Made by a program: the position numbers and the translations under genes
Notes under the pieces: model-generated
What the model was told of the DNA's origin: nothing
Database searches by the model: none
Seen by the model: the letters and a program-made list of their open reading frames with translations, nothing else
In this document: positions 1-63,406 of the stretch, one piece after another
How the letters are laid out: each line of letters opens with the position of its first letter
Numbering within the stretch: the stretch's first letter is position 1
Source: Tubiluchus corallicola
Lineage: Eukaryota > Priapulida > Priapulimorpha > Priapulimorphida > Tubiluchidae
Direction of reading: 5' to 3'
Length of the DNA: 64,000 bases
Assembly (NCBI GenBank): GCA_030141605.1
Contig: JAQGDQ010000206.1
Coordinates: forward strand, 1-64,000

Positions 1-24
1 ATTCAAAATTGTATCTATTCTATT

Positions 25-2712: not shown

Positions 2713-2715
2713 CTA

Positions 2716-2781
<66 letters not shown>

Positions 2782-2782
2782 C
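2713..2782. repeat. (ATT)n microsatellite
   Basis: About 21 uninterrupted ATT triplets directly join the coding remnant of a minus-strand LINE. Read on the minus strand it is (AAT)n, like the simple-repeat tail of some non-LTR elements. Here, however, it follows the motif LAKLRSG, which is not the usual protein end. Confidence 0.95.
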
Positions 2783-3300: not shown

Positions 3301-3303
3301 CAT

Positions 3304-40528: not shown

Positions 40529-40672
40529 TCATACATTCTGCGGGCTACTGTGATTACTGCTGCTTTCCGCCGTTTCCGTGTTGTTTATGGGAGGAGGGTA
40601 AACATTGACCGTTACCACTTGTTCGGTGCTCTGGCCAATTGAGTCGTCGGTACTTGTAGAAGCGTCGCTCGT
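40529..40672 (-). CDS. RNF13: RNF13-like terminal coding exon
   Basis: Acceptor TTGGTTTCAG. Reads TSDASTSTDDSIGQSTEQVV, TVNVYPPPINNTETAESSSN, HSSPQNV, TGA. Ser/Thr-rich tail of low conservation, joined in phase 0 to the exon ending in ...ALSM. Confidence 0.85.
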   Translation of the reverse strand, partial: TSDASTSTDDSIGQSTEQVVTVNVYPPPINNTETAESSSNHSSPQNV

Positions 40673-43600
40673 CTGAAACCAATAGTTACACTTGTTAACT
40701 GTACTTAACCTAGCCACTACTAGGGGGGGGGGCAAGCCAGCCCAACTCAGTGCCGGTCCCAAGCCTGGATAAATAAGGAGGGTTAGGGTCAGGAAGGGCA
40801 TCCGCCTGTAAAAACTGAGTCAAAACCTTCTATGAATGAGTCGGTGAGACTTAAAGGTAACGTCCACAAAGATAGTGGTCAGACCCGCTCTAATCTATGG
40901 GCTGGAAGCAGCTTCTCTAAAGAAGACCGAAGAGAAGAAAATGGGTGTGGTGGAGATGAGCATGTTGAGATGAATGGTGGGAATAACAAGAAGAGATAAA
41001 ATTAGAAATAATAATATCAGAGGAATAGTAAAAGTAGTGGAAGCCTCGCAAGATTGCGATGGTATGGACACCTGAAAAGAAGAGTCGGTGAAGATCATGT
41101 GGGAAGGGAAGACATAAATGAAGAGATGGTCAACAACAGGAATGCGTGGAGAAGACTCATTCACAACGGCGACCCCGCATAGGGAAAAGCTGGGAAAAAG
41201 AAGAAGACATTTGTTAACTGTACTTGATGCTGGTAGGTTTTTAAGTTGTAAATTTTCAACTCCCTCTATGCTGGATTATTAATTTTCAATGCTAATTCAT
41301 ATTAACAGGGATGAGAATGACAAATTGCAAAAAACTCTGAAACAGGCCGGGGGTTTTGGGGCCGCCTAGACCCCCAATGGGGTTGGGGGGCAAAGCCCCC
41401 CTAGGGGTTCAAAGCCCACTTGCAACCAGCAACAAATTGCAATTTTGTGACTTAAAATATCAATTACCTTGTTTCATGCATAATTTAAAATACCCAACTA
41501 TCAAGGATATATGATACCTAATTGTCTCAAAAACGCCCAAGTACTGGCCGCTCCTATGCAAAAGTATATAAAAACCGTCTGCAATTGACTCAAATAACTC
41601 CTCACAATTGATTCTCTATTTTTATACATAGAGATATACACGTTGTTACACTGATGTATGTGATGTATACAAAGTGGCGGGCCGCCAACTAGCGGTCAGC
41701 TTGCGAAATAATGTACTGGGTCCGTAAAAATTTACTCAACGAATTTACGCGTTTTACAAAAATGGCACTACTGGTCTTCCAAAAACTCGGAATTCCGCGT
41801 ATCTGCGGAAACTTCTCATCGCCGTATTAAAGGAGAACTGAACTCAGGGTTAAATGGTTAAATCATAGCTGACAGTGATCTATTGTATAAAATAATGAAA
41901 AGTAAAACATTGTTTTTTCAATAATGACTAGTATTGCCATTCATTAGTTAGAAGGCAACAGCAAATGCATTTCGAAAACGCGTTACGCAAAAAAGTAGAC
42001 AATGTAACTTTCAGTTCAGTTATAACGCGGCACACTGGCATCGCTAATAAACGGAAATTTTGCAGTCCGTTGCGGGTTGTCATCATCATCATCATACGCC
42101 CGTCACGTCTATTGTATACATTGGGCAGGCAGAATTCTAAAATAAAAGAAATCTGCCTTCAAACAGGTAAACGCAGCAGTAATCCAGCAAAAAAACTAGA
42201 CACTGCTACGCCAGTGGCTTGTCAGCACCACTTCCGTTTTCCCACGCAAATTGCTTGTTGATTGTTGGTGAAACGTGTTTAGTCACTTGTTCTGCATTCT
42301 TATAAAATGACTGCGTATTATGGATTAGTAATATGGACTTTTGTATAAATCGGCTTCTAAATACAAGTATGTTCTTATTTGTGTGGGTGTGCGCGTGCGT
42401 GCATGCAGGTGTGCACAGATGTGTGTGCATGTGTATAAATAAAACTAATATTCAATATTAGTGTTTAATAACAAATGGCTATTTGTTTATTTACAAGATT
42501 ATGTTTTAGTAACACACCACAAGAGGTTATAGTCAAATGTGTAAAAGCCAATGCGACCCTGTTAAAAAGCAACTACGTAGTGAAAGGGTTGAGCAGCATT
42601 GATTTTTGCTTCAGGGACATATCTCACTTGTTTTACGTTACTTTTTACGGAAGTCTTGGTTTCGTTTAACGACGTTGCGGGTTGCTTCCTTAGCGTAAAC
42701 ATTAGCAATATGCAGCACTCTTCGGTCATTAAAGTTTCTGTAATAGCAATATAGGGAGCGCATTTTTCTGTATTTTGTTAGGATTATTCGATGATTTTTC
42801 ATTGCGAAGAGTGTTGCATATTGCTAATGATTACAAAGAGGGAGCAACCTAGAATGAGCTGCCTATCAACTCACCATGCTAAGAGCATCGACAGCTCCAC
42901 CTACTGGCACTGCAGTGAAGTAATTGTTCTCCAACTGTGGCGCTGGGGGCGCTCTGTGTCCAATAAACTCCGGTGGCCCAGCAGTATCTGTACTAGCCAA
43001 CGTGTCGGCCGATTCTGTTGACATGGAGGACTGATAAGATGAGATTGGGTGGTCAACCGGACGCCCTAAATAATGCAAATAACGGCTGTGAATTATCTTA
43101 CAATTTAAGTAGAAATAAGAACTAAAGTATGAACAATAAAAGATTATTAAATCATATCAAACCATTAGTGATTTGGTATTAGAAAAATCTTACACTTAAC
43201 ATAGGACTCTATGTACACGTAATGCCTAATCCACGATAAGAAATGCGTGTATGCAACAGTTTGTATTGAAAAATGTGGAACTGTTTCCATGTTTACATAA
43301 TGTAGAAGCGTACAGCGCTACCACCACCGCCCCCCACCCCCCGCTTTCCCCTAGTTGTTATTGCATGCTTTGTTTCGCTAAGTCACTGCACGCCACCGCA
43401 GACGACAAAGTGGGAAATACTTATCTCTTGCCCGTTCTAAATCCGGAAGATTCCCGCGAGTCACACACCGCATGCAAAATGAGAGAAAGAAATGCAAGTT
43501 ACTCGAAAATCAATAATGTAACAACTAAAACAAAAAAGTTCCAAACATTAAGAGAGTGCAACAGAAGATGAAAAAAGTGAAAGAGAAGCTTGGTTTCGGG

Positions 43601-46600
43601 ATGTGGAAAATGATCATTAAGAACAGAGGCAAAGAGATATTCGAAAAGGCCAAGTGTTGCTCTTTCTACATGCCCATACATGGTAACAGCATGACTCCAT
43701 GTGTGTATAATGTATGGTGTGTGATCCATAATGCAAATAGAACAGTTTATATTTAAACATGTATAAGAGTTTCCATGTAGCTGTAATCCGTAATGGGTGA
43801 TCCGTATTCACTCGAAAGTGATCGCTATCATTCGAATATGCAACACGCAGCAATACGCGGACGGGAACGGCCACTGCGCCTAGGTGATTTGACGAGCTTT
43901 CAAATTTCCAGTGACGATTTTCACTGATTAGCTTCCTGGTCAGGTGAATTTTGGTCACTTCAGAACTTACACAAAATACTATTTCTTTCAGCATGTAATT
44001 ATAAGTTCGGTATCTAATCGCAGTTCCCTGGCCTCCTTCCCTAAGTGACACATATCATGTTGGTCTCTTCTCTCCCCTGCAAAATATTATGCCTGTGCTT
44101 TTTTTGATTTTGTCGTATATTAGTCTGCCGCAGTGTAATTTCGACATAAGCATGGTTCCAAAAAAATATTACTTCCAAATTTCCATGAACAAGCAACCAC
44201 AAATAGCGGAGCATTATGTACGCACTTTCGTTACGCGAATTATAAGTTTATGCTTCATTTATGCTAGAAAATGTTTACCACCATCTACAAAATAAGCCAA
44301 CAAGTTTTCAATTGCTAATAGCATATTCATATTCATATTCATATTCATATCATATTCATTAATGGTCTGGCTTTTCAGTTGCGCCCGAATTGTACTGCAT
44401 GTCTAAGATGAAAAAAAAATGGCGGAAAGAGCACCGTGAGTTTTGTTAATATGCATAGCGTTCACGGACACACGGAAACAATCAATGTTACGCATTACGC
44501 ACATATGGAGCCTTTTCAAAAAGCAAAATTTTACACTGTTAATAGTAAACTTAAATATGTTTGTTGGTTGGCATCCTTCTGTCTCGGAAGACAATGGAGT
44601 GTGCGCCAAGAGAGTCGGTTATTGATCACATTGATGAAGCTGCAGCGTCGAATGTGGCTGAGCAGTGCGATCCCTGAATGTCTCCTGGGCGCATGCCTGG
44701 GAAAGGTGTATGGAGATCTTGAGTTGCCCAGACAACAGGAACCCCTCTCTTCCTCCCTGGTGTGGTCCAAAGGAAAGCGGAGCGATACGTTTGGCACCAG
44801 GTCGGCTGCAGGAACTGCCGGAGTCAGTGAGCTTGCTGCACTGGTCCGCCTTCGGGGCTCCGCTCCTGATTTGGAAGGTTTACTCCTCTACACATGGCCG
44901 TTGGGTCACTTGACCTCCTCCGCCCTCTAGCCGTTGGCTGCTTGTGCAGCTCTTCCTCCCAGTGTTGAGATACAGTGTGGGCATCCCGCAGGCTTACAGT
45001 ACCTGGTATTCCTAGGCGGTCACCCATCCAAGTACTAACCAGGCTCTACGTTGCTTAACTTCAGTGATCAGACGAGAACCGGTGTTGTCAACGTGATTTT
45101 TAAATATATTGGTTAACTAGTTATAATACAAATTGTTAGAGTATAAAACTGTCACAATCTAGTACGTTCTAGTAATTATTACGCAAAGGTTCCGAGTTCA
45201 TATCCTAGCTCTGCCAATCATTAAGTACAAACTACCTGGTATTATTTGACACAATGATTTGTTCTACTCGAAGAAAACACAAGCATAAACAAAAATTACA
45301 GCGGTAGAGAGACAATCTTACTGTCAGCACTAATAACCAGTCAGCTTACCTGAGGTATAAAAAGTAGAGGATCCAATGGCACGAGCGTTTTGTAGCAAGG
45401 GCGTGGTCTCGCCCTCGCCCTCCCCTCCGCTGTCGCTGTCAGAATTGTCGGACTCCTCACCTGGAATTACCTGTCGTTTGCACACCGGGCACGTTTTCTT
45501 GTTATTGGTCAGCCACGGGTCAATGCACTTCACGTGATATGCTATAAGAATCAGCAATTAAAATTAAAATTATATTTTCAAGCAAAACTAGAAAGCAACA
45601 ATGAATTCAGATCCAAATCTGCAAGCATAATGCCGTGATTGTGTATATATGTGGTTATACCTGGTCGAGTGCGGTTAACTCACGTCAATACTTGCAGACT
45701 GCTATGCTCAAGCTTGCATGACACTCGCGACTAAGTTGAAATTTCGCCCAAAAAACACGCACAAACGAGTAATCATATGTTTAGTAATATTTAAGAAAAT
45801 TTCTTTGTTATCTAAACTTTGTAACAGTCGAAAAATCATACTACTACAAACAATTAAAACGATTTTATTACACAACATCCATAAAGGTTTAAAAGCAAAC
45901 GACGTACCGTGCGTGCACGGCAATATTCGCAGCTTTTCACCGTCGTCGTACTCGTCCAAACATATGGCACACATGTCATACTCGTCGCCCTTTTTAAATT
46001 TCTTTGTGGGGATCCGTTTCAAGTGTTGCACCGACAGGCGGGAGCGACGCTTGCGACGGTGATCACGCACGCACTTCGCCACCTGCAAATTAAATACGAA
46101 CCCGTAATATCAAGAACAACAGAAATATAAATGTAACAAACGTATTCAAAAACTGAAAGCAGTAAAAGATCTTCATATTAGATGTAATTTTTTACGAGTT
46201 CAAAATAATTTTTACTTATTAGTGGTGTCTATGTGAGTACAGTGTTCCCCCACTTATCGCGGGTGTTCCGTTCCAGGCCCACCCACGATAAGTGAATTTC
46301 CACGAAGTAGGGACACTATTCAGTCTCTAACGAAAATTTCACAAATAGCGTACACAAAACCGCAGATGAAAACTACGCACATGCGACAATCGGATGCTAA
46401 CGTGAAATGGAAGAGCTGAGAGGGGGGTAGCTGCGCACAGCGAAAGAAAGCAAATTACAATCTCACGTCGGCAAGTAGCATCTCAAGCGGGCGCAACTAC
46501 ATTTCGTTTTTCGTGTGTTTTCATCCGCCGAATAAATACACTATTTACTGTAAATGGTAATTTTTTATGATTTATAATATTCTTTCAATGTTAGAATTAA

Positions 46601-49183: not shown

Positions 49184-52100
49184 TGTTCCCTCACTTATCG
49201 CGGATGTTCCATTCCAGGCCCACCCGCGATAAGTGAATTTCCGCGAAGTAGGGACGCCATACTTATTTTAGTAGTTATACATTATTTTCAGTCTTTATAA
49301 ACCCTCCCCACACTCACACGTCGGCAAGTAGCATCTCAAGCGGGCGCAATTACATTTCGTTTTTGGTGTGTATTCATCCGCCGAATAAATACACTATTTA
49401 CTGTAAATGGTAATTTTTTATGATTTATAATATTCTTTCAATGTTAGAATTAATATTTTTTAATATATTTTATATATTTTGTGATTTTTTTATGCAAAAT
49501 TCATCAAATCCATACATTACTGTACAATACGTACTACGCATGTGCAAAAGTACTTTAGACGGAGTACTGCAAAAACCCGCGAAACGGCGAAAATAACGCG
49601 ATAAATATTTTACATTAATATTTTTGCCGCGAAACAGTGAGTTCACGATAAACGAACCGCGAAGTAGCGAGGGAACACTATATATATATATATATATATG
49701 TATGTATATATGTGTTTGTATATATACACATACAGGTTTCACATATGTAAACATTTAAACCAAGACGAAACCACATCTGCCATAGCCCAGCATCTACACA
49801 ACAATCAGCCATGTACAGATAATTACAATGATTCAACTTTCAAAATTATATACAAGTACAGATCAGATTTTCACTTTAAAATTTTGGAAGCAATAATCGT
49901 AAATTTTAAAGATCCGATTTCAGGTAGACAAATAGAACACGTTACTAACTTGTCTCTGTTTTAGTTACTGAATCTAGTACTAATTTTATTCAGTAACAAA
50001 CATGGCGGCTTTCAGCAGCAATTTTAGTTTTGCACTTTTACCTAATATTTTGATAAAATTGCAGAAGTAGACACTGAAGAGCTCCACTGAAAACTCTTAT
50101 CCAATTTAGTTACTGTATGACTGTATATACCTTTACACTGTGCAATAAGTGCTGAAACTATACCATCATGGTCTTAGTATTATTTAAAGCATATATGTTT
50201 CAAAGAGAAACGCAATGCAACTAAAACTGTACTGATCCTAAGATGGAAAGCCTAACTGGAGTTTAGTTACAAGCTTGAGATTCATTTGGTATCGAAAATA
50301 AAGAGTATAACGTGGATTTGGATTCGGTCCGGTTTCGGAAACCGTAAAATGTGAGATTTGGATTCAAATCGGTTTCGAAAATGAAGCAAAAATCATCTTC
50401 AAATTCGATTCAGTTTCGAAAATTTAAGCTTCGTGCCACCCCACCCACCCCAAACATTTCTCGTACCCCACTAGCTGACACAACCCTACAATACTTACGG
50501 TAACTTGTAACCTAGTTACAACACGTAAGGCCGGCCACAAAAAAAACTGTTTCGGTCTTGTCACATGAGTTCAAAAGATGTCAGTAGGAGGGAGGGAAGA
50601 AAAAACTTTTTGAAAAAACTTTTTAAAGCATTTGGAATGTTTAAAGCTGAATCGTGGAATATTTAAAATCAGTGGAAACCAAAGTTTGTTTATTTCCCAC
50701 TGGTTAGCAGTAATGTTTTATATTTTTCCGATGTACATTTGTCACGCTGCGTTTTTTAGTTTTTTTTGTTTCGCGTTACAAAATTATCGTATAATTATCG
50801 ATTATCGCATGGTCTCTTTTTTGTACGGTATGAACGTGTATTCTGATAATTATGGTACAAGCAACTGAACTACTCAGATGTTAAAAATGTTGATTTGGCA
50901 GAAAATACGATACTTTTCCACCGCCAATGGCATAATCAGCATCATACAGAACAGCAAGCCTAGCCGAGAGTTAGTCATAGAAAAACAAAGCTGCATTCTC
51001 ACTGAAACATCGACGTTATAATAATTGTTGAGTCTTACGCTTTAAATTTAAAAACACGCTCTTATATGGCTGCATCAGGTAAGTATATATGAACGTGCAA
51101 AAAAATTATCAAATTCCCAAACGAGTATGTGATAAAAAAATATTACTCGGACGATTAGACGGAAAGTATTTTTATAGTCGGCCTTTAACGAATCAAATCT
51201 AGCGACACACAACGACCCTGCCACCTTACCAACATTAAACCGAATGACTCACCATTCCTACGCCTAGTAAAAATATCCCCAGGGCGGAGACGGCGAGGGC
51301 TAGCAGGAAGGGCAACAGATAAGAGAGAACATCGAAATCATTCCAATGCCAACCAAGCTTAACATAGCACCTAGAAGTATGCAAACGCAATTACGACGTT
51401 AGTCCCCGGTTCAACTTACCATGAAGACGAGCATTATAACAAAGCAAATGCCAACGACAACGGCAAACGGTAGCAAGTAGCTATCGAAGTTGAGCGGCGG
51501 GTCGGGCGTCAGAGTCAGATAATACCTACAGCGAAAAGAAACACAGCTGTAAAGGAAAAGTGCGAAAAGATAAAGACTGAAAATTCATGCAATTCGTGAA
51601 CAATGCAAAAAGTTTTTGCAAGTGCAATAGTACCAGTGGCGGCCCATAGTTCAAATTAGCGGGGGTACTGCTTCAGAAAATTTGTACTAATTGTTTTAAT
51701 ACTGTGTAAAATGAAATAAACATATGTAATTTCAATGTTGTAATTTGTAATTGTAATTTTAAACAAGCAAACCTACAAAAGCTTATATATAAACTTGATA
51801 AAATTCTAAACAAAACAATTATTTTTTGCTTACTAATAGCCTACATTGTGGCAGTTCAAGCTTGACAACAAACTGTGTGAGTGACAGTACTTTCTCTACC
51901 TGGGCTCAGATATGTGCGCACGACAGCCAAACACCACATCGCTGGAGCGCACTGTGCTGGGCTACAAAGCAAACCATACTACCTTCACGTACTACGGTTC
52001 CGCACAGGTATAAAGAAAGAAATAAAGAAAAAAGACTTATTATACTGAATATTATCGATAATAGTTACTGAATGAAAGTAGGGTACGACGGAGTTCCACA

Positions 52101-55100
52101 GTACCTACACACGAGCCGCCACTGAATAGTACAGTCTTTTAAAGACACATGTATTATGACCAAAGGTGGCCACTTGTTATCAGCAGTTGTTATGGTAAAG
52201 CTGCTCCACTTTTAGCAAGCACAGTATGACAGTTTAAAGATGAAAAATGAACAATCAGTTAAAGGAAAACACAACGATTTTTCACACTCTACCGCATTTT
52301 GAAGTACGGTAACACCTATAATAATGCCAAAGCACTTTCGATGATTAACTAATTAATGGGTTAAAAACTTAATTAACGGCAGGCGAGCCCAACTAGTGAT
52401 GACATCACAAATGAACAACAGCACATTTTATGAGCCTGTTACACATGTTTGTGGAAATGAAAATTGAAGTACTACAGTGCAACATTCAGTATGATACCCA
52501 AACTCTGCAAATTTTCAAAGTTTAAAATTCAGACTTCAAGTTTATTGCTATGCTCACGCATGAACTCTTGAACAAGTGCACTACCTCAACACTGAACGTG
52601 TCTGAACTGAGAAGTAGAGCACCAGTTTTTTGTGCAATGCAATTCCATGATGCAGGTGCTAGTGACCGTCCAACTAGCAAATGATGAAATACAAGTAACA
52701 GCGAAGAACTGACAGCAAAAATACGTTTCTGTGGTAATAATTCCTTCACATAAGTCATTCTTGAAAAAATAGTGTTTCGTTTCAATACTTTATAGAGTTG
52801 ATTGTTTGGGCTACCGTTTAAGAATGGGTCTGGCTTTCCCTATAAGAGTCTAAGAATTTTCTAGATTTTGAAGCATATGTAGTGAAGTAAATACAGTCTA
52901 GTCTCGTTATCTCGCCAATGTCCGTCTAGGGCAAATTTTTGGCGAGAGGCGAGTATGGCGAGATAACGGGAATATAACGAAGTTAGTCTATATGTATATA
53001 CATAATACTGATTAACATAGTGTTCCTCTGTGTACATATAAAATATATTTCGCATTATGATACCAATCAACATTAAATCAGAAATGAAAAAATGTCATAA
53101 AAATAATCTTAGAATGTTACTTTTTTATTTAAAAAACCTTTTTCGAGTATACACTTAAATGCAATAAACTTAGCAAAAGATTGGTGTTATACACACCTAA
53201 ACGCAGCTTTGGTGTCATAGAGTAAGGATATCGGTGACGCTTTAGTTTCTCTGCGCATTAACTAACCACAGCACTCCTAATCTAATCCTGGTGAGACACA
53301 CACTAGATTAATTATGTCTGTCTATCGAGTACAGCAGCATTGTCTACATACCGCGGTTATATTGGTCGACACGCGGTATATGTATTGATCGATTCACCTC
53401 TGAGTTTGTCTGTTTGTCGACATAACGAACATAGTTTTACATAAGCACTCATCCTAGCATGACGTGGCGAGGGCGAGAAGCGAGGGTGGCGACTTAACGA
53501 GGTAAATATCAAAGCAGGAAATCCGTCCTGGTACTTTCTATGGCGAGAGACGAGTTTGGCGGCATAACGAGGGGCGAGATAACGAGGCTAGACTGTATAC
53601 AAGTTGTAACTCCCTTTGAAGTCAAAAGCATGAGCACCTGTTAGTATGAACATCAGCAATTCAGAACAATAAAAAGTTAGTCAAAGCAAAAGCCAAAGTT
53701 TCTCGAGAAGTTGAGCGTATTTTAATATTTGAGAAAAATGTTTGAAAGTTTCACTTCAAACTTGGCCCGCTCATTTTGAACGAAACATGGACTCGTCTGC
53801 AATACAAACACTTATCCTGCCAGGTGCTTGAGCAAACTCTTTCGCAGCTAAGTTACTATTATGAACTTCGGAAAATACGAAGCATTAAACAAGAGATTTT
53901 TTTCATCATAATACTATTTTTTGCTTTTTCATTTATCCTGTTGCGCACTATGTGATTAAAACCAGTTTCCGACAACAATAGAATAACCGTCAACTTGGCT
54001 ATTTAATGCCAATGAAGTAACAGAACAATTATTTTAACCCTCATAGGGTCACAATTTTTTACAACCAATTTTGGTAACCGGGGGGTAAAAATTACTCAGA
54101 AGGGGCCTGAATTAAAAGTTACGAAACTGGACAAAGTCTTACCGAGTCATATACTGATATTGCATCATCAACTGCAAGCCATCATTTAAACCTACGAATA
54201 CTGAGGGAATAGTTACATCCTGCGGATCTGCAAACATGAAAGTTATCATGAATTATACCATTAAACAATATTCTATGAACTATAAACTATGAATTTTATT
54301 TCACACATCAAAAAATACAATATCAAACACATTAATATACTTTAAATAAAATAATTTGAGTAGTGCGAGGTGAATGTACGACCATACGATCATTAACACA
54401 CTCACCTAACTTAAATGAAAAAATGATTATAGTTGTGCATACTTCTGTAGGTAACTTAATGTAAATAAGGATGAAGTAAATGATGTAATAATAGCAATGG
54501 TATAACAGCAAATGGTATCACAAAATTGAGTGAAATTTTTTTTAAATAATTACGAATATGAATTATGTGATTATCTGTCAATGTACCACTTACTTGTATT
54601 ACAATGCACCATATTGCTTACTTGTATATACAATGATATACATATACACATATATGTACCCAAATTTAAGTCGGGGGCGAAGAGATTAAATCAGAGGTGT
54701 GCAAATTATCTGAATTCCTGCGGGCCACAGGCAGTTTGATCAAGGAGCCAAGTACAGAAAGGCCTAATAACGATTTTTTTGCATCCGACCTGCGTACATC
54801 ATTACTACTACACTCAAGAAACTATTTTAGAAGTTATTAAAATTTATATTACAAACTATATATTTCTACTTTCACGATAGATAGTGGTAATTTCATTACA
54901 ATGCACATTAGTAATGTGTATCACACAGTCTGTGTAGTACAGTGACATTAAGCTACAACCGTCTTGTAAAGGTTAATGGCATCCGATCCGAGAAACTACC
55001 CACACTATCTTTGGGATCGTGGCACAGACTTCAGCTGGATATACTCAATTAATCGCCCGGGCCGCACTTTCATTAGGTTGACAAATCTCTTCGCGGGCCG

Positions 55101-58100
55101 CACAAATTCTCTCGGCGGGATTAAATTATACATTATACTTGTAGTAATAACTATCATTGTATAGAACATTTAAATATAATTGATGGTAGTAATGTAGCCA
55201 TCATAACATTCTAAAATACTTTTTCTAATAGTACCTATTTGCGGACAGTATTACAAAACAAAATATTACAATAAAAATGAAATTACAACAAAACTGTGAT
55301 ATGTAAATGATTAGTTTGATCAAACAGCTAACTTATGACTTACCATAAGAATACATTGGAATGAGTTCATTTGACTGGTCATTAAATACAATAGCAGCGT
55401 CATACCCCGCCCTCTGCGCAGCTATCACCTAAAGAGAAAAACAGAATTTCAAAAAAGAAATGTTATTAAAATCGAGAAATAAAACCTGAATATAGTACAC
55501 CGGTGACAAACGAAACAAAGTCAAACAAAACAGCTTTAGGAAGTCGTCGACTAACGACCACAGTCAGTCGGTTCACGCGGATTACCCCTACACGTAGGAC
55601 ATTGCGTGTAAATGCGCATTAAGTATGGTGCTGCATATGACGAATTTATTACAGTGTTCCCTCGCTACTTCGCGGTTCGTTTATCGCGGACTCGCTGTTT
55701 CGCTGCTTTTCAAAAATATTAATGTAAAGTATTTGTCGCGGTATTTTCGCTGTTTCGCAGGTTTTTGCGGTACTCCGTCTAAATTACTTTTGCGTAGCAC
55801 GTATCGCACAGTAATGTATAGATTTGATGAATTTTGCATAAAAAATCACAAAACGTATAAAAACATATTAAAAATATTAATTCTAACATTAAAACAATAT
55901 TATAAATCATAAAAAATTACCATTTACAGTAAATAGTGTATTTATTCGGCGGATGAATACACACCAAAAACAAAATGTAATACTTGCGTCCCTACTTTGC
56001 GGAAATTCACTTATCGCGGGTGGGCCTGGAACGGAACACCCACGATAAGTGAGGGAACACTGCATTATTATTATTTTATTTGTATGAAAAAATTTATACA
56101 GCAATGTAGTTTTAGTACAGATAATTATACAATAAAAAATAGTTTTTGTTAGTAATTAAAAAAGTTAAAGGATGATGAAATCCATACAGACGCATCGCCA
56201 TCATGTTACATGTAGTTGTTGACACATTCATAGAATGATTTTCTAACTTTCTTTTCACATTAAAATAAAAGCAAGGAGTACAATAATTCTTTATTCGTAA
56301 ATCAACATCTGAGTCATTCATGAAATACAACCTTTTTGGTATAATAAGTGTTGTGGAGATCGCTGGCATCTAGTAGAATTAAATAGAACATTGTAGAATG
56401 TTCCATTAGAATAATCGTCTTACCTTGTAGAATGTTCTAGAAGGAAACGTCTAGAATGTTCCCTGGCACGCTGTATAAGGCGAAGCAGGCCGCTGAGACA
56501 GACACACGCAGATTTCGCACGGACGTATACTTACACATTCTCTTGTATACTTGTATTTTCAGATACACTTAAACGTTTTCCAGATTTTCACGTTTACTGT
56601 AAACATTTCGCGTTCCTTCATACTTTTGTGTTGTAGAATTCTCGCTTAATAAACTAGTTTAATTTGACGAAGTGTTTTCTGGTTTTCTCTACGAGCCTTC
56701 CGAGAGAAACAAAACACAACAATAAGTGCTGCGGAATTTTAAAAATCTCAATTTACAACTGTTTATCAAAAAATTTGCTGGCAATAATACATAAGTAGTT
56801 TTACACCTTCGTTTTATTTATAATGTCAGTTATTTTACTCAGCTTACTTATTTATTAGAAAAGACAAAAGACTTAAAAGTTAATTGGCTTAAGAAATAGA
56901 AGGAAATATAGTTGGTTTTGTACAATTCATTAATTAAGTTGCGATCAGGTCGTAAAGTTGAACAGTCATAAGACGACAATTACCTATATATTAAACACGT
57001 ATTCTATATTGTGCAATCATTATGTGTCGGGTTTGCAACTTAATTATCTCACAAACATTATCTAAGGAAGCAAAGAATTAATAAATATATCTATAAATTA
57101 CTTACAACTTGCAACCAGCAACTTCATTGTCAGGAACGTTGCCGAAACGAAATTTTCTTTTCAGTTTGCACTTTCGGTTGTGGCGAAATTTTGGATAATT
57201 TTCGGTAACATTTTCAGAGGTTTTACTAGTATTTATCCAATTTACCTTTTCTTTTCTCCTAGATGTCAAAAACCTCTGAAAATCTTGGCTAAATTAGTTC
57301 AAATAAAGCGAAAACTTTGTTTACATAACAGTTTGTGACATGCATTTATCTTCAAGGCTTTTCTCTTTACCAATGAGGTGTACCTTCAGTGCTGACCTCT
57401 GTGAAGTTTTAGGGTCTCCAGGCCCAATCAACCGATTACCAATGTGGTGACCTTCAGTGCTGACCTCTGTGAAGCTTAGGGTCTCCAGGCCCAATCAAAC
57501 GATTACCAATGAGGTGTACCTTCAGTGCTGACCTCTGTGAAGTTTTAGGGTCTCCAGGCCCAATCAACCGATTACCAATGTGGTGACCTTCAGTGCTGAC
57601 CTCTGTGAAGCTTAGGGTCTCCAGGCCCAATCAAACGATTACCAATGTGGTGTACCTTCAGTGCTGACCTCTGTGAAGTTTAGGGTCTCCAGGCCCAATC
57701 AAACGATTACCAATGTGGTGTACCTTCAGTGCTGACCTCTGTGAAGTTTTAGGGTCTCCAGGTCCAATGAACCGATTACCAATGTGGTGTACCTTCAGTG
57801 CTGACCACTGTGAAGTTTTAGGGTCTCCAGGCCCAATCAACCGATTACCAATGTGGTGACCTTCAGTGCTGACCTCTGTGAAGTTTTAGGGTCTCCAGGC
57901 CCAATCAACCGATTACCAATGTGGTATACCTTCATTGCTGACCACTGCGAAGTTTTAGGGTCTCCAGGCCCAATCAACCGATTACCAAAGTGGTGTACCT
58001 TCAGTGCTGACCACTGTGAAGTTTTAGGGTCTCCAGGCCCAATCAACCGATTACCAATGTGGTATACCTTCATTGCTGACCACTGCGAAGTTTTAGGGTC

Positions 58101-61100
58101 TCCAGGCCCAATCAACCGATTACCAATGTGGTGTACCTTCAGTGCTGACCACTGTGAAGTTTTAGGGTCTCCAGGCCCAATCAACCGATTACCAATGTGG
58201 TGACCTTCAGTGCTGACCACTGCGAAGTTTTAGGGTCTCCAGGCCCAATCAACCGATTACCAATGTGGTGTACCTTCAGTGCTGACCACTGTGAAGTTTT
58301 AGGGTCTCCAGGCCCAATCAACCGATTACCAATGTGGTGTACCTTCAGTGCTGACCACTGTGAAGTTTTAGGGTCTCCAGGCCCAATCAACCGATTACCA
58401 ATGTGGTGACCTTCAGTGCTGACCTCTGTGAAGTTTTAGGGTCTCCAGGCCCAATCAACCGATTACCAATGTGGTGTACCTTCAGTGCTGACCACTGTGA
58501 AGTTTTAGGGTCTCCAGGCCCAATCAACCGATTACCAATGTGGTGTACCTTCAGTGCTGACCACTGTGAAGTTTTAGGGTCGCCAGGCCCAATCAAGCGA
58601 AATATCAAGCGTTTGAATTTACTTGAGCAAAATTACATTTAATTTTATAATTTATGAAATGTAGGCTACGAGATTTTTGCAAAACAAAACTTGTTTATTT
58701 TTAATGAAGCATTCTGATCATTAGACATTAATCATCAAGGATACTTCAATTCAAAAACATTATAACACATTTTCTAAGAGAAGCCACTCCGTCAAACTCA
58801 ATTAAAACTTCCCCGTCCTTTTTCTACTAGAAATTTTCATCGCAGCAAATAAACAAAAAACAAAATATTTACTTTTTTTAGAATTTTTTCATTTTTTCAG
58901 TTTTAGTAGTGGTTGGGTTTGCAAAAATGTTTCGATTTGTAAATTCGGTTTCGGTTACATCTCTGGTCATTGTTGCCGTTTTACTTAATTACACTTTGGT
59001 TAAATTATTATTTAAAGATAGTCACGTGTGTCTCTTCTTTCCCATTATTGAACATTATTTTTTTATAAACTAACACATTCGTATAACGTTCAATTTTCGT
59101 TCGTCTCAAATGCAAAATCTGATCATTTTTTATTACCCGATACATGCGCATTAACTAATTAATCATATTAGTAACAATCCTGAGAGGGTGGCTGACCTCG
59201 ATAACTTATAGTTCTTTCGCCTCCCTTTCACCACTAATCAATAATCACTTTTGCACTTCGTAATATTATTGTATGTTGTACGAGATTTATAAATCTGTTA
59301 GTTATGTATTTTGCTATTTTAAAAATGGTGATAAATTAATATACTTACTTACTGACTTACTTACTGACTGACTGACTTACTTACTTACTTACTTACTTAC
59401 TTTGGCTGAAACAATAGTGCTGTGTCTCTACAATCTACATCAAGGCCAATTAGTGCTCTTACATTGATAATTGCATACCTGTTACTAAAGATACACCAGC
59501 AGAATCAACATCAAGATTAGTGACTCCTAAATGAATTAGAAAATTTAAATTTACGCACCTTTTTATCGAAATCGCAGTTGCCTCGCCTTATGAGAGCCAC
59601 CCATGGCCTCGCAGCGGTGAAGTTTTTGGGCGGTGGGCTGACAGGGTCACAGGCATCTCTTGGAAATAAGTAAACTACATAACCCTGAAAATTACAGATT
59701 AATGTGATGATATACCATATATATATATATACCATACCATATATATATATATGGTATATCATCACATTAATATATATATATATACATATATATATATTAT
59801 ATATACTGGTTATTTATGGTAACAGCTATGTATATCATATTATACTCACGCATAAACATCATTTACATTCATAAATTCATATTTATAACAACAACAACAA
59901 AAGGTATTCAGTTAGTTACAAGGGTTAGTGACATTTGATATTGCAATGATGCCGAGTCTGTCGCCAGGGGCTCTGATTGGTCGATATTTCCTCATGTTTT
60001 AGGTGCCAAGTGGTGCGGGTTCAATGCCAGGATCATGATAAACTTTCTACATATGTGCTTTGCACGAAAACAAACAGGGATTTGTAGTAGAAGTAACTCG
60101 CCAGTAAACTTGTCCCGTATACTTCATGCTAGTTGTGCTTAACGAATAGGTGCTGGGATGACAAAAACACTTGTCAGTTTACCTACAGAACTAACGAGGC
60201 CATTCCATATCAGCAGTTTTATACCTAATGCGCTGTGCTAATATGCAATGGCTTCATAATAGATTGAACGATCACAATATGGGGGTTAGAGGTGAAAATA
60301 AATGACGTTTTGCCGTTGTAACAACATTAATACGTCGTGTAAAGCCGGGGATATGAAATTCACTGTGAGCAATCCAATCTAAATCACCGGAGACATATCA
60401 CAATATCACTATAACAATTACCAAGATTTTGGTTATTGCTCTTTGATTAAAATCCACCAAAAAATACTATTCGTATTTAACATTAGCAACGAAATTCTGG
60501 AGTTATTTACTGAGCTACGATATTTTTCAGGACTGCGCAAAGTTTTCATCAAAATTTTTATACTGCAGTGTAATTTAGCGAAGCACTATAAAACTGACAC
60601 TACAAAAAGGTACATAAGAATTTCAATGCAGGTTAAAAACCACAGTACCGATCAACGAGAGAGACCTGTCACTCACCGTCATGCCGTTGGTAGGTAGTTG
60701 AGGCCCAAACTGAGCCGGCAAATCTTTAAAGATCTCAACTGTCTCATTACTAGGTGTGTTCTAGAAAAAAAGAATGCACCAGCTTTATTAGAACTACATT
60801 TACTAGAATTAACAAAAATTCGAATATAAAAAAGTTAGTCCAGAATGCGAAGCATCAGATTACTCACTTATTGATTTTTTTCCACTTGATACGACTTTTA
60901 GAGCACCATTTAGTGTTACCACGGCATTATTAAGCACCATTAAAGGTTTTAAAATGTATACTTTCACCCGTACTAAGTGGGATAGGATGTGAAAAAACAT
61001 CCTGTTTTCCCATAAGTATCGGAAATTAAACTTTCCAGACATTAACTCCTTCCCGATGGGTACACATATTTACCCGTCATCTGTGATGGGCAAAAACAGA

Positions 61101-63406
61101 ACCTTATTAACCCTTTCAGTCCCAAATTATTTTTTAAAAAGAAAAATGTTTTTTGGCTTGGTACTTTTGTTCAGTATGTCCATCTTGTTTACACATAATT
61201 ATTTTTTTTCTACCCGTGCCCGCATGCTAAATATAGTCTGTGTCCCACGGGATACATTGGGATTCAATGGAAGCATAAAATGTGCTTCATTTTGGAACTG
61301 CTGATGATTTTTTAAAGTATTTAAGACATTTAGTATGCATGCTATGCTGATCTGTACAAAGTCGTCTCTAAAGTACTGTACCTTGCACAGTTTTTTATGC
61401 TATGTAGATTTTTTAGTTTGCCATTTTATCACCATTTTAGTCTATTGTTGTTGGCTTAAATCAAAATAACTATTACCAGATCAAATAACTGTCAGTTTTA
61501 CAATTTTATTAATTTTAAAGGCAGAAAATATTCTTGTATCCCACGGGATACAATGGGTATGAAAGGGTTAACTAAACTCATAATTCAACGAAATTTGGAA
61601 AAGAAACGACCAATATACAAGTAAATCATATAAGAACGAAATAAGTTCTACTGTTTAAACGCTTTCAGTACATGAACAAGCTTTTGCAGACCATTGGATA
61701 ACACTTTTGCATTGCACTTGTACTGGTCACCTGCAAGCCAAAGGTCACCTATTAGCTCAGGCTATTGTTAGCACGCTAAGGTAATTTTGCTGCACCTGGG
61801 CATGTATTCAGAGAAAGAAACAGCAGACAGCACAGAACACAACTGTAAGACTTTGTCATTTATTTGCGTAATGGCCACTCGGAAAGACTGAAACGCGAGC
61901 TCCCATATTTGGTACTCAAGAGAGTGAAATTATTTTGGACGATAATTCAACTGACTTGTACTGTACTTGGAAAATATAAAACCTGTTTTACTATAATTAG
62001 TATCGTGGCATTTATTAATGTTATGTTATAGCGTGAAATGAATTCACGCTATACGTTGAATGCTGTACGCTATACGCTGAATTACTTGAACTTTGCACCC
62101 ATCTATCCACTGATCAACCTCGCCATGGCTTAACTTCGCTTGTGAAACATGTATGATCATTCCCTCCCTAAATTTTGATTAACCTGTTAATTAATAATGT
62201 TATAAATATCATTTTACACATTTTATGGTAAACCGATCTTTGTGTTAAACATTTTTGTGTCATTTTTCTTTAATTTTTGCTAATTAAGACTCTTCCTACT
62301 TGACACTACATTTTTTTGTTTAAAGGACAAGTAAACGATTTTTGGCACACATTAGTTATTTGTTATGTTTAACCATGCTTTTATTATGATATTTTAGGAG
62401 TTAAGACATTGTGCATGCAGCAGCTGGCTAGTTGCAGTTAAACTTCACCTTTCTATCAACTTCATGCCATCTAATAATTAATTAAAGGAAAAATCAACAC
62501 TTGAACAACATTCATTGTATTTTGTGAATACATTCTTCTTTTAAATTTGTAATGATTTCTCAGTTTGACAGACAAGCAGTTGCAGTTGCTGGTCAGATTA
62601 GGACAATAACCCATTAGATGCGTGTAGCGTAGTCATTTCTGTACTTTCCACTTGGTAGCACTAAGTATGCTGTCAGGTTTTGCATTTCAACCAGTACAAA
62701 TTTATCGCAAGTAAACAAATTCAGTACTTGACTAAACCAGCAGGTAAATAAATGTGCACTATATGTGGGGATGGTGGCTGTAACTTCAACAGCGCACAGG
62801 CCCAGCGTTTTAATCAGCTGCAACCAGCACAGGGCAGACCCACGTGCAGGGGTTACGTTCCTGTACAAGTTTCATAACACCTTAGTGCGTTTGAACGGCT
62901 ATCAAATGTACATGCTTGGAATGACTTCAATACTTTTTGCAAAATCTTATGCAGAAAAAAATGCTCTGCAGTTTCTGTTAAACAGTTCTAAACATAAGTT
63001 AACACTTGGAAACTAGAAGGTTTTGAAATGAAAATTTTGTGAGTAATTAACAGGATGATATGAAAGTATGCAACTTTTCATATCATCCTGTCAATTACTC
63101 CACCAAAAAAAAATTAAGCATTTTATTTACAGTGCTAGAAAGGAAATTTAATTCTCTTTCAGAAAATATATAATTCTGTACTAGTATCTCACGCAATTAG
63201 GCCTTTATGGGCATTTTTGTAAGGGGACGTCAATACTACACAAATATTCGTCGCCGTGAAAGAGTTAATGTAAAAAACAACAAAAATTTCTTTACCACGA
63301 TTACGTCAGCATCGACGAGGGTGACGTGGAATAATGCCACGAGGTTGACAACAGTAAATATATACAGCACTGTAATGTGGCATGGCATTCTCTGATAGGG
63401 AAACAT
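40529..63406 (-). CDS. RNF13: RNF13/RNF167-type PA-TM-RING E3 ubiquitin ligase (complete, alternative TM exon)
   Basis: Endomembrane RING-H2 ubiquitin ligase of the goliath/RNF13 family. Coding exons in transcript order: 63406-63296, 60760-60677, 59684-59559, 55428-55344, 54227-54143, then 51525-51420 or 51370-51253, then 46082-45908, 45541-45350, 43065-42875, 40672-40529. All borders are GT/AG and phases join throughout: 432 or 436 residues. Layout: signal peptide (about 1-33); protease-associated lumenal domain (about 38-163) with sequons NET and NFT; one transmembrane helix (about 178-199); basic linker; RING-H2 with ligands C237, C240, C255, H257, H260, C263, C275 and C278 (first form); acidic tail and TTPLL. 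The usual vertebrate length is near 380; the extra lies in the tail. RNF13 versus RNF167 cannot be settled by eye. Confidence 0.95.
40700..41210 (+). pseudogene. RTE-like LINE 3' fragment with RT C-terminus
   Basis: Plus-strand frames read MVGITRRDKIRNNNIRGIVK then, after a frameshift, LRWYGHLKRRVGEDHVGRED ... NAWRRLIHNGDPA stop. An in-frame TGA replaces the expected W before MVG. This RWM-G-RR-D-IRN / RWYGH-RR pattern is the usual C-terminus of many LINE reverse transcriptases. Upstream CAGTGCCGGTCCCAAGCCTG and GGTCAGGAAGGGCATCCGCC are characteristic of the same elements. Broken, and antisense within the last intron of the RNF13-like gene. Confidence 0.8.
41340..41425. repeat. G/C-rich hairpin-forming patch
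   Basis: GGCCGGGGGTTTTGGGGCCG followed by GACCCCCAATGGGG and GGGGGCAAAGCCCCC, a perfect short hairpin. Strikingly GC-rich against the AT-rich intron. Similar patches are common as dispersed repeats; its class is unknown. Confidence 0.6.
41426..42230. other. RNF13-like intron, nothing recognised
   Basis: Ordinary intronic sequence; a CATCATCATCATCAT run is at 42080. No supportable gene. Confidence 0.5.
42238..42560 (+). repeat. dispersed repeat H, copy 2
   Basis: Same orientation as 26440-26780. Shares the Gly/His-like GTGTG-rich stretch and AATAACAAATGGCTATTTGT. Lies in the last intron of the RNF13-like gene. Confidence 0.8.
42700..42829. repeat. 25-bp inverted arms, 130-bp hairpin
   Basis: Arms CATTAGCAATATGCAGCACT+CTTCG (42700-42724) and CGAAGAGTGTTGCATATTGC+TAATG (42805-42829) pair with one mismatch. 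On the transcribed strand it starts about 45 nt after the donor of the exon at 42875-43065. Confidence 0.85.
42875..43065 (-). CDS. RNF13: RNF13-like exon 9
   Basis: Acceptor CATTATTTAG. Two bases complete glycine, then RPVDHPISSYQSSMSTESAD, TLASTDTAGPPEFIGHRAPP, APQLENNYFTAVPVGGAVDA, LSM, donor GTGAGT. Pro/Ser/Thr-rich cytoplasmic tail. Confidence 0.9.
43305..43665 (+). repeat. dispersed repeat with 103-codon frame, copy 2 (frame broken)
   Basis: Plus-strand counterpart of 17395-17758, from TAGAAGCGTACAGCGCT to TGTTGCTCTTTCTA. It reads [20 protein letters not shown] but loses frame after RECNR and again near KEKLGFG. Confidence 0.7.
43666..44560. other. RNF13-like intron, little recognised
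   Basis: Only an (ATATTC)n microsatellite at 44322-44358 stands out. Frames here have no recognisable domain. Confidence 0.5.
44566..45140 (-). repeat. 5S rRNA-derived SINE-like element, copy 2
   Basis: Minus-strand copy of 7541-8140. The 5S-like head is about 45082-44990 (CTTGGATGGGTGACCGCC, GGAATACCAGGTACTG), followed by the same body down to GAAGGATGCCAACCAACAA. Head and body are in the same order in both copies. Just upstream on the minus-strand side lies a B-box-like GAGTTCATATCC (near 45197), which is not a full tRNA. Confidence 0.8.
45350..45541 (-). CDS. RNF13: RNF13-like exon 8 (second half of RING)
   Basis: Acceptor TGATTCTTATAG. Completes alanine, then YHVKCIDPWLTNNKKTCPVC, KRQVIPGEESDNSDSDSGGE, GEGETTPLLQNARAIGSSTF, YTS and one base of glycine. 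Holds RING ligands H260, C263, C275 and C278, then an acidic serine-rich stretch. Donor GTAAGC. Confidence 0.97.
45908..46082 (-). CDS. RNF13: RNF13-like exon 7 (basic linker and first half of RING)
   Basis: Acceptor AATTTGCAG. Reads VAKCVRDHRRKRRSRLSVQH, LKRIPTKKFKKGDEYDMCAI, CLDEYDDGEKLRILPCTH and one base. A strongly basic stop-transfer stretch follows the membrane helix, and KFKKGDEYD.CAICLDEY is a family hallmark. Donor GTACGT. Confidence 0.97.
46240..46831 (+). mobile_element. pogo/Tigger-like MITE, copy 2
   Basis: TA-flanked. Ends CAGTGTTCCCCCACTTATCG and GAAGTAGCGAGGGAACACTG. Internally deleted compared with 13288-13982. Confidence 0.9.
46832..47454. other. RNF13-like intron, nothing recognised
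   Basis: AT-rich intronic sequence between two mobile elements. Confidence 0.5.
47455..48222 (+). repeat. dispersed repeat R1, copy split by a MITE
   Basis: Both halves match 14667-15068 in order. The break is exactly at the MITE at 47672-48011. Confidence 0.85.
47672..48011. mobile_element. pogo-like MITE (CAGTC...CTCGTTAAACCGG ends), copy 2
   Basis: TA at 47670-47671 and 48012-48013. Ends CAGTCGACCCTCGTTAAACC and CCGGTTTAACAATGGTTGAC+TG. It contains a (CA)n/(C)n expansion at 47960-47985. The uninterrupted R1 copy supplies the empty site. Confidence 0.95.
48420..48780 (+). repeat. dispersed repeat family D, copy 3
   Basis: Matches 35100-35455: AATCTTATTGACAAGATACA, CTTGTTTCAAATGACTT, GCACCTAAC. 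Non-coding. Confidence 0.75.
49181..49680 (+). mobile_element. pogo/Tigger-like MITE, copy 3, inside a TA microsatellite
   Basis: Starts CAGTGTTCCCTCACTTATCG and ends AGCGAGGGAACACTA. It is embedded in (TA)n (49154-49180 and 49680-49700), a natural target for a TA-specific element. A 24-bp stretch near 49628 is deleted compared with the other copies. Confidence 0.9.
49740..51252. other. RNF13-like intron, no gene recognised
   Basis: Includes three loose repeats of GGATTTGGATTCGGTCCGGT-like words at 50310-50425. Frames at 49698-49964 and 50632-50868 show no domain or splice context. Confidence 0.45.
51253..51370 (-). CDS. RNF13: RNF13-like exon 6b (alternative transmembrane exon)
   Basis: Acceptor GCATACTTCTAG. 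One base completes arginine, then CYVKLGWHWNDFDVLSYLLP, FLLALAVSALGIFLLGVGM, donor GTGAGT. 118 nt, the same phases as 6a and the same fate downstream. It shares NxFDxxSYLLPF with 6a but has a different, more Leu/Ala-rich helix and a longer lumenal stalk with two tryptophans. Only 49 nt separate it from 6a. Confidence 0.88.
51371..51419 (-). promoter_or_regulatory. 49-nt intron between exons 6a and 6b with branch site
   Basis: On the minus strand it starts GTAAGTTGAA and ends TACTTCTAG. The best branch match is GGACTAACG, with the branch A at 51399. That is 21 nt from the 6a donor and 28 nt from the 6b acceptor. The first distance is too short for normal spliceosome assembly, the second is normal. 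Confidence 0.7.
51420..51525 (-). CDS. RNF13: RNF13-like exon 6a (transmembrane exon)
   Basis: Acceptor TTCTTTTCGCTGTAG. One base completes arginine, then YYLTLTPDPPLNFDSYLLPF, AVVVGICFVIMLVFM, donor GTAAGT. 106 nt. YLLPF...VGIC..I...FM is the version closest to vertebrate RNF13. It forms the single membrane helix. Confidence 0.95.
51634..52124. mobile_element. hAT-like MITE (CAGTGGCGGC ends)
   Basis: Perfect 8-bp duplications AATAGTAC at 51626-51633 and 52125-52132. Ends CAGTGGCGGCCCATAG and GAGCCGCCACTG. 491 bp, unrelated to the CAGGGGTG family. An 81-codon frame inside shows no transposase motif. Confidence 0.93.
52225..52790 (-). repeat. dispersed repeats (inverted copies of 12950-13160 and 31560-31890)
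   Basis: Positions 52225-52440 match 12950-13160 (GTTGGGCTCGCCTGCCGTTA on minus) and 52440-52790 match 31560-31890. Their adjacency here suggests they are parts of one longer interspersed element. Confidence 0.6.
52894..53595. mobile_element. TA-flanked MITE (CAGTCTAGTCTCGTTATCTC ends)
   Basis: Ends CAGTCTAGTCTCGTTATCTC+GCC and GGCGAGATAACGAGGCTAGACTG, near-perfect inverted repeats with TA at 52892-52893 and 53596-53597. The subterminal parts carry further GGCGAGA/ACGAG repeats in both orientations. 702 bp. Confidence 0.93.
53598..54142. other. RNF13-like intron, nothing recognised
   Basis: No repeat or motif could be supported, apart from TTTTAACCCTCATAGGGTCA near 54034, which is palindromic. 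Confidence 0.45.
54143..54227 (-). CDS. RNF13: RNF13-like exon 5 (end of PA domain)
   Basis: Acceptor CATGTTTGCAG. Two bases complete aspartate, then PQDVTIPSVFVGLNDGLQLM, MQYQYMT and two bases of arginine, donor GTAAGA. IPSVFVG is a family hallmark. Confidence 0.95.
54692..55118 (+). mobile_element. hAT-type MITE, copy 3 (right terminus missing)
   Basis: Perfect 8-bp flanks GATTAAAT (54684-54691 and 55119-55126). The left end is CAGAGGTGTGCAAATTAT. The right side stops at TCTCGGCGG and lacks the final 27 or so bases with the terminal inverted repeat. A subterminal piece on the left is also deleted. Confidence 0.88.
55344..55428 (-). CDS. RNF13: RNF13-like exon 4 (PA domain)
   Basis: Acceptor TTTTCTCTTTAG. 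Reads VIAAQRAGYDAAIVFNDQSN, ELIPMYSY and one base, donor GTAAGT. AQRAGY.AAIV is a strong match to the RNF13 family. Confidence 0.96.
55652..56062 (-). mobile_element. pogo/Tigger-like MITE, copy 4
   Basis: Reverse orientation. Starts CAGTGTTCCCTCGCTACTTC and ends TAAGTGAGGGAACACTG. TA on the left, CA on the right. Confidence 0.9.
56349..56721 (+). mobile_element. solo LTR of an LTR retrotransposon
   Basis: Starts TGTTGTGG, ends CACAACA, with 5-bp target duplications ATAAG (56344-56348 and 56722-56726). Inside are a TATA-like TGTATAAGG at 56472 and an AATAAA near 56649, in the order U3-R-U5 on the plus strand. No internal region remains, so it is a solo LTR left by recombination. It lies antisense in the RNF13-like intron 55429-59558. 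The superfamily cannot be told from the LTR alone. Confidence 0.88.
56429..56462 (+). promoter_or_regulatory. heat-shock-element-like motif in the LTR
   Basis: GAATGTTCTAGAAG gives three contiguous alternating pentamers (nGAAn nTTCn nGAAn), followed by AGAATGTTCC at 56452-56462. Further GAA/TTC words occur at 56389-56407. It lies about 30-45 bp upstream of the TATA-like box, the expected promoter position. Confidence 0.6.
56727..57365. other. RNF13-like intron, nothing recognised
   Basis: AT-rich sequence with no repeat or motif to support before the minisatellite. Confidence 0.5.
57366..58600 (+). repeat. 69-bp minisatellite, about 18 copies
   Basis: Unit: CCGATTACCAATGTGGTGTA, CCTTCAGTGCTGACC, CTGTGAAGTTTTAGGGTCTC, CAGGCCCAATCAA. 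A 66-67 bp variant lacks TAC. 69 is a multiple of 3, so both strands stay open for long runs, giving repetitive non-protein-like frames. Confidence 0.96.
58601..59065. other. RNF13-like intron, nothing recognised
   Basis: AT-rich intron sequence. GTTTCGATTTGTAAATTCGG near 58928 resembles loose words at 50310, not a defined repeat. Confidence 0.45.
59066..59402 (+). repeat. dispersed repeat with (CTTA)n tail, copy 2
   Basis: Matches 16825-17180 and ends in a pure TTACTTACTTAC tract. Without the internal duplication of copy 1, this is probably the ancestral arrangement. Confidence 0.75.
59559..59684 (-). CDS. RNF13: RNF13-like exon 3 (PA domain)
   Basis: Acceptor TGTAATTTTCAG. Forty-two whole codons: GYVVYLFPRDACDPVSPPPK, NFTAARPWVALIRRGNCDFD, KK. 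Donor GTGCGT. C..P..PPP and ALIRRG.CDFD are PA-domain hallmarks of this family; NFT is a sequon. Confidence 0.97.
59700..59769. repeat. 31-bp perfect palindrome arms at a splice acceptor
   Basis: Arms TAATGTGATGATATACCATA... (59700-59730) and its exact inverse (59739-59769) with an 8-base loop. On the minus-strand transcript it ends only 15 nt before the acceptor of exon 3. A (TA)n tract continues to about 59806. Confidence 0.9.
59807..60676. other. RNF13-like intron, nothing recognised
   Basis: An AACAACAACAAC run near 59887 is the only simple repeat. Frame 60443-60697 overlaps the exon edge by chance. Confidence 0.45.
60677..60760 (-). CDS. RNF13: RNF13-like exon 2 (start of PA domain)
   Basis: Acceptor TTCTTTTTTCTAG. 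Twenty-eight codons: NTPSNETVEIFKDLPAQFGP, QLPTNGMT, donor GTGAGT. DLPA.FG is a family hallmark; NET is a sequon. Confidence 0.96.
60761..61106. other. RNF13-like intron with dispersed words
   Basis: GATGTGAAAAAACATCCTGTTTTCC near 60986-61010 matches the word family at 13110 and 31895. Confidence 0.4.
61111..61567. mobile_element. piggyBac-like MITE
   Basis: TTAA on both sides (61107-61110 and 61568-61571). Ends CCCTTTCAGTCCCA and TATGAAAGGG. Two internal words GTCCCACGGGATACATTGGG and TATCCCACGGGATACAATGG are near-duplicates. Confidence 0.82.
61572..63295. other. RNF13-like intron 1, no gene recognised
   Basis: Includes a 26-bp-arm hairpin at 63041-63100 and an imperfect AGCGTGAAATGAATTCACGCT palindrome near 62031. 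Frames (62614-62868, 62765-63016) show no domain. Confidence 0.5.
63041..63100. repeat. hairpin, 26-bp arms
   Basis: GAGTAATTAACAGGATGATA+TGAAAG pairs with CTTTTCATATCATCCTGTCA+ATTACTC, one mismatch and a 7-base loop. It may be a remnant of the ATCATCCTG word family. Confidence 0.75.
63296..63406 (-). CDS. RNF13: RNF13-like exon 1 (signal peptide)
   Basis: ATG at 63406 is the first in-frame start after a TGA at 63424-63422: MFPYQRMPCHITVLYIFTVV, NLVALFHVTLVDADVIV, donor GTAAAG. A second in-frame ATG at 63388 gives MPCHITVLYI. Both have A at -3; the upstream one is chosen because it is first. The hydrophobic core and following VDADVIV match the RNF13 signal peptide region. Confidence 0.88.

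Follow-up and report, generated by a model that had tools for sequence, protein, structure and literature searches.

A candidate mutually exclusive pair of transmembrane exons in an RNF13-like ubiquitin ligase gene of the priapulid Tubiluchus corallicola

A gene for a predicted membrane-anchored ubiquitin ligase carries its transmembrane exon twice, in tandem. It is very probable that the two versions, exons 6a and 6b, go back to an old duplication and have been kept as a mutually exclusive pair, which would serve as a regulated swap of the membrane anchor. The gene lies on the minus strand of the window, the whole stretch of 64,000 nt that was analysed. A full-length open protein is obtained only with exactly one of the two exons, and splicing of 6a to 6b is probably blocked sterically by the short intron between them, with the reading frame as a backstop.

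The gene and its product

The gene model comprises ten coding positions from 63406 to 40529, the sixth of which is present twice. This assignment is a model built from open frames and splice sites, the latter judged by eye; a slash marks the splice site here and below.

63296..63406, minus strand: exon 1, start codon ATG, open frame, donor GTG/GTAAAG, hydrophobic N-terminus
60677..60760, minus strand: exon 2, lumenal segment directly ahead of the PA (protease-associated) domain; the Pfam PA match starts at its last codon
59559..59684, minus strand: exon 3, PA domain, Pfam PA match
55344..55428, minus strand: exon 4, PA domain, Pfam PA match
54143..54227, minus strand: exon 5, end of the PA domain; its last two bases, CG, begin a split arginine codon
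51420..51525, minus strand: exon 6a, 106 nt, lumenal stalk and transmembrane helix RYYLTLTPDPPLNFDSYLLPFAVVVGICFVIMLVFM, canonical-looking
51371..51419, minus strand: intron between exons 6a and 6b, 49 nt
51253..51370, minus strand: exon 6b, 118 nt, alternative stalk and transmembrane helix RCYVKLGWHWNDFDVLSYLLPFLLALAVSALGIFLLGVGM
45908..46082, minus strand: exon 7, basic stretch KCVRDHRRKRR next to the membrane, and the first RING-H2 half
45350..45541, minus strand: exon 8, second RING half, acidic/serine stretch and dileucine motif ETTPLL
42875..43065, minus strand: exon 9, cytoplasmic tail
40529..40672, minus strand: exon 10, end of the tail and stop codon

The hydrophobic N-terminus encoded by exon 1, as read by eye, is a putative signal peptide. 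The PA domain matched Pfam PF02225 with 58 bits (cut-off 23.9, E=1e-15) and the RING-H2 domain PF13639 (RING_2) with 56.2 bits (cut-off 27.3, E=4.1e-15). Uncharged run and hydropathy gave one hydrophobic helix between these domains in either isoform. For the RING region the best PDB match was RNF13 (5zbu), with 52 of 74 residues identical. The motif ETTPLL of exon 8 fits the tail motif [D/E]xxxL[L/I], and its human RNF13 counterpart, EHTPLL, binds AP-3 according to the accessible part of PMC8620429.

Judged from these predicted domains, the gene is an RNF13/godzilla-like PA-TM-RING ubiquitin ligase gene and its product a predicted E3. As far as the accessible portions of the sources describe them, RNF13, RNF167 and Drosophila godzilla (CG10277) have the same arrangement of PA domain, single transmembrane segment, RING-H2 domain and tail motif [D/E]xxxLL; the putative signal peptide would fit it too. 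We infer orthology to this branch, of which RNF13 was the sole member compared. An NCBIfam scan returned three M36 peptidase models, which matched the PA part far below cut-off, and no relatives of the locus were found in collections of virus, bacteria and archaea contigs.

Two versions of the membrane exon

Exons 6a and 6b are adjacent, homologous, in the same phase and of compatible length, as duplicated exons are. Each completes the CG/G arginine codon begun by exon 5, and both finish in phase 0. Exon 6a has the acceptor ...CGCTGTAG and the donor ATG/GTAAGT, exon 6b the acceptor ...ACTTCTAG and the donor ATG/GTGAGT; both donors are consensus-like. With a single anchor exon the frame is open throughout and gives a protein of 432 residues (6a) or 436 residues (6b). 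Inclusion of both exons leads to a stop at codon 203 (M-V-L-C-stop) and skipping of both to a stop at codon 185, and these stops fall several exons ahead of the last junction.

Much of this anatomy had been proposed in a first-pass annotation of the same DNA. Its central claim, that an RNF13-type PA-TM-RING ligase has its transmembrane exon twice, in tandem and in matching phase, is supported by the coordinates, the Pfam matches and the PDB alignments. Both exon lengths, the split-arginine start and the phase-0 ATG end were reproduced, as were the two protein lengths, the immediate stop with both exons and the break of frame with neither. The intervening 49-nt intron was absent from that annotation.

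Exon 6b as a chance open frame was ruled out by shuffles and by control segments. The BLOSUM62 local score of 6a against 6b, 37, was reached by 56 of 20,000 whole shuffles of 6b and by 152 of 20,000 block shuffles in which stalk and helix were shuffled apart. Control segments were taken from both strands of the window as open stretches of 84-160 nt, bounded by AG..GT(A/G), with a length of 1 mod 3 and in the right frame. Five of the 686 scored at least 35 against 6a: three were 6a with other acceptors and two were 6b with other donors. Identity over the whole alignment is 12 of 35 residues, and the strong alignment is limited to the block around NFD--SYLLPF. Third codon positions agree at 10 of 35 sites, near chance. 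Second positions set hydrophobicity; they agree at 21 of 35 sites, an excess biased upward by the protein-guided codon alignment.

Splicing of the pair

Some animals do splice introns of about 49 nt, and the steric argument therefore rests on the 68 introns measured in this genome. Gaps between adjacent myosin exons (n=39) had a minimum of 100 nt; their lengths are estimates from profile positions except for the 100-nt one, which was read directly as a GT...AG intron between coding sequence, and at least two of the 39 were counted twice, since the two myosin genes on contig C917 are near-identical. This count covers 87 of 93 matches, and the remaining six add one gap of about 1713 nt and none shorter. 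In the TCP1 (chaperonin) family 20 gaps, again estimated from profile positions, had a minimum of about 163 nt; they come from 35 of 48 matches, the 13 dropped being intronless or on single-match contigs. The nine other introns of the ligase gene model range from 366 to 5170 nt. The sole gap seen below 49 nt, one of 17 nt in a TCP1-family pair on contig C402, is among the matches dropped; we take its length to be insufficient for an intron, and it is perhaps a frameshift.

Within the 49-nt intron a branch-point-like CTAAC motif, picked by eye, lies at 51402-51398. For its A (51399) the distance to the 6a donor is 20 nt and that to the 6b acceptor 28 nt. Since the intron measures 49 nt, any branch point within it lies less than 50 nt from the upstream donor, a distance that a survey of human exclusive exons takes as potential steric interference (PMC5740500, accessible part); by sequence alone, intron and motif both place the pair inside this limit. 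The accessible text of that survey also argues that tandem exons encoding transmembrane helices are hardly cassettes, since the remaining protein would switch sides. A steric block would be the most economical reading of the exclusion between 6a and 6b. Competing local RNA structure, the type of mechanism known from Dscam exon 6, was left without support: the fold of 51700-51150 was no stabler than 60 shuffles (z +0.89; local pairing only). The mutually exclusive use proposed in the first-pass annotation is thus strongly supported by the anatomy of intron and frame, and remains a prediction for transcripts.

In the proposed mechanism, U1 and U2 snRNPs would be unable to assemble together on the 49-nt intron. 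Joining of exon 6a to 6b would then be impossible, which would force the spliceosome to pick one of them. Splicing mistakes would run into an early stop and probably into nonsense-mediated decay, and the choice between the exons would be regulated by tissue or stage. The steric enforcement is an added, testable detail, which makes a clean prediction on exclusivity.

Comparison with known exon pairs

Mutually exclusive transmembrane exons are a known kind. Exon 17 of insect Dscam1 comes, like 6a and 6b, in two mutually exclusive versions that encode the transmembrane segment, as far as the accessible sources describe it. The choice is reportedly regulated by steric hindrance with RNA structure, as the title of a paper on this exon has it. 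Dscam1 differs from the ligase in being an unrelated protein, an immunoglobulin receptor, and no local RNA pairing was found at the ligase locus. Its transmembrane isoforms are cited as being sent to different neuronal compartments (PMC2655722, accessible part). Arthropod N-cadherin likewise has mutually exclusive exons over the transmembrane region, 18a and 18b, but it too is an unrelated protein, its exons encode 68-70 residues each, and the accessible part of the same source gives no difference in targeting (PMC2655722). The precedents for transmembrane isoforms therefore point both ways, with Dscam targeted differently and N-cadherin alike.

OGDH is a soluble enzyme. Its vertebrate exons 4a and 4b resemble 6a and 6b as tandem exons whose mutual exclusion depends on branch points close to the upstream donor (PMC7969005, accessible part). 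The human branch points lie 25-41 nt from the donor according to the same portion of that source, against 20 nt for the motif in the 49-nt intron of the ligase.

In the same genome, a myosin heavy chain gene has two tandem versions of one myosin-head exon, phase-matched as judged by eye:

C1359:111012-111194 and 110374-110547, minus strand: myosin-head exon pair, a second tandem pair

It is probably a second mutually exclusive pair in this genome, and it indicates that tandem exons of this kind are not out of place in this organism.

For RNF13, godzilla and RNF167 we found no mutually exclusive transmembrane exon in the open-access literature among the matches listed, and the same holds in the literature matches listed for a splice-controlled anchor switch in any PA-TM-RING ligase. 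The term RNF is absent from the main text of two surveys of tandem exons (PMC5740500, PMC9741552). The statement in the first-pass annotation that no such exon had been described in the family stands within the scope of these open-access matches. Automatic transcript annotations may already contain anchor isoforms of the RNF13 family without a name. A splice swap restricted to the anchor, known from adhesion receptors, would here occur in an endosomal-type ubiquitin ligase. Human RNF13 is linked to epileptic encephalopathy in the accessible part of the literature on it.

What the swap may change

Exon 6a looks like the canonical or ancestral anchor and 6b like the diverged one. The 6a protein aligns through PA domain, transmembrane segment and RING domain to ZNRF3 (8xfp) with E=1.3e-20, the FD motif and the helix included, whereas the 6b protein did not match ZNRF3 at the limit of 1e-17. 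The transmembrane segment of human RNF13 presumably also resembles 6a. Scanned by itself against Pfam, the 6b segment matched no family.

The first-pass annotation had called helices and lumenal stalks clearly different; the stalks are unlike, and the helices differ in composition and run length. The uncharged run is 23 residues long in 6a and 28 in 6b; of the five additional residues, two stand before YLLPF and three after it, as judged by eye. Best mean hydropathy over 19 residues is 2.96 for 6a and 2.53 for 6b. Small residues (G/A/S) make up 0.17 of 6a vs 0.32 of 6b, beta-branched residues (V/I/T) 0.35 vs 0.18, and leucine 0.13 vs 0.32. The swap would therefore exchange a shorter, beta-branched helix (6a) for a longer one rich in Leu, Gly, Ala and Ser (6b), together with another lumenal stalk, while the PA domain, the RING domain, the dileucine motif and the basic stretch would stay unchanged. 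In this respect the gene offers a natural experiment, in which stalk and helix would be the sole differences between two forms of the same ligase.

That the swap could alter sorting, as the first-pass annotation suggested, is weakened by two observations. The basic stretch lies in the shared exon 7 and ETTPLL in the shared exon 8, so that the cytosolic sorting signal is the same in both isoforms, and N-cadherin 18a and 18b are targeted alike. RNF13 is proteolysed, which frees both its PA and its RING domain, according to the accessible portion of the work describing it. Given the shared sorting signals and this cleavage, the likeliest effect of the swap would be on how the helix packs, how the protein partitions in the membrane or how its RING half is released by proteolysis; we rank a changed endosomal address, or a new cytosolic sorting signal, below these. 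Much more tentatively, the swap might be a regulated switch conserved across a whole animal clade, which decides whether the endosomal ligase keeps its anchor or has its RING half set free by a cut within or next to the membrane, or which membrane partners it meets; we consider this doubtful.

Alternative readings

The pair could owe its appearance to a copy that is no longer used. In this case 6b would be a dead or dying duplicate, still open by luck, and since the sequence comes from one genome only and the 6b protein misses ZNRF3 at 1e-17, some features speak for it. Against it stand the open frame, both splice dinucleotides, the consensus-like donor, the length of 1 mod 3 and the motif FD..SYLLPF, all preserved despite high divergence, as well as an exon-like GC content of 0.49, compared with 0.32-0.41 in the nine other introns of the gene. 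We simulated neutral decay in 20,000 runs without indels, taking the observed 6a/6b identity of about 0.45 as full divergence and scoring a copy as passed when it kept the frame, both splice dinucleotides and its resemblance to 6a. Only 0.045% of dead copies passed when the whole divergence was placed on 6b, and 0.64% passed at 0.75 of the divergence, a result that is flattered because the pair was selected for looking open. The share that still looked intact and similar rose to 4.0% with half of the divergence on 6b, which is a point in favor of a dead copy, and to 14.5% at 0.3. Taken together, the sequence argues that 6b has been retained. A dead 6b is very unlikely, although a copy that died recently could look like this.

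A different reading sees in the pair mainly an off switch, with both or neither leading to an early stop and splicing tuning the amount of ligase. The stops at codons 203 and 185, with several exons still to follow ahead of the last junction, would suit such a role, but a single exon with a length of 1 mod 3 would suffice for it without a second copy encoding a transmembrane segment, and the 49-nt intron makes double inclusion unlikely. As the main purpose of the pair an off switch is hardly credible; it may exist alongside a mutually exclusive anchor swap. More weight is due to the reading that 6a and 6b are used singly, with an unregulated choice and functionally equivalent anchors. This reading shares the splicing half of the explanation preferred here and denies its functional half. 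It finds a parallel in Drosophila N-cadherin, where 18a and 18b, without difference in targeting, are called functionally redundant in the accessible part of the source (PMC2655722). The helices of the ligase differ, however, in uncharged length and small residues, as do the stalks, and deep divergence combined with a retained frame suggests that both exons were kept. We therefore hold redundant isoforms to be unlikely, though a serious contender, and prefer a regulated swap between two retained anchors.

Other observations in the genome and the window

A further copy of the 6a/6b pair, whether paralogue or haplotig, was not found among the best-scoring candidates in the genome. Of other RING matches, we take the one on contig C719 to resemble RNF11 and those on C511 and C822 to resemble RNF181, judging by motif. 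RING-gene matches with equal scores occurred on differing contigs (C511 and C822; C1787, C2138 and C2264), and those on C511 and C822 have an identical translation, which suggests uncollapsed haplotypes or recent duplicates.

Two copies resembling 5S rRNA were detected in the window, with 83.3 and 71.2 bits in Rfam:

44991-45109, minus strand: 5S rRNA-like copy (83.3 bits), inside intron 8 of the ligase gene
7573-7691, plus strand: 5S rRNA-like copy (71.2 bits)

Each is followed by a similar tail of several hundred bases, and the open frames at 44412-44930 (plus strand) and 7868-8419 (minus strand) share long stretches. Copies and tails together look like a dispersed, 5S-headed repeat.

The window also has tandem arrays:

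57367-58600: 69-bp units, 18 copies with 95% match, several of its reading frames open, located in intron 3 of the ligase gene
28736-30247: 50-bp units, about 30 copies
17813-19403: 44-bp units, about 36 copies
10618-11464: 97-bp units, about 9 copies
1798-2668, 4282-4918 and 6745-7268: three TGTGG-rich arrays

The region of the TGTGG-rich arrays is strongly strand-asymmetric, with a GC skew of 0.32 at 1-4000 and of 0.39 at 4001-8000. It also contains an open frame at 2424-3299 (minus strand), followed by a TTA repeat; the first part of this frame, read by eye, presumably resembles the C-terminal portion of a reverse transcriptase protein of the LINE type.
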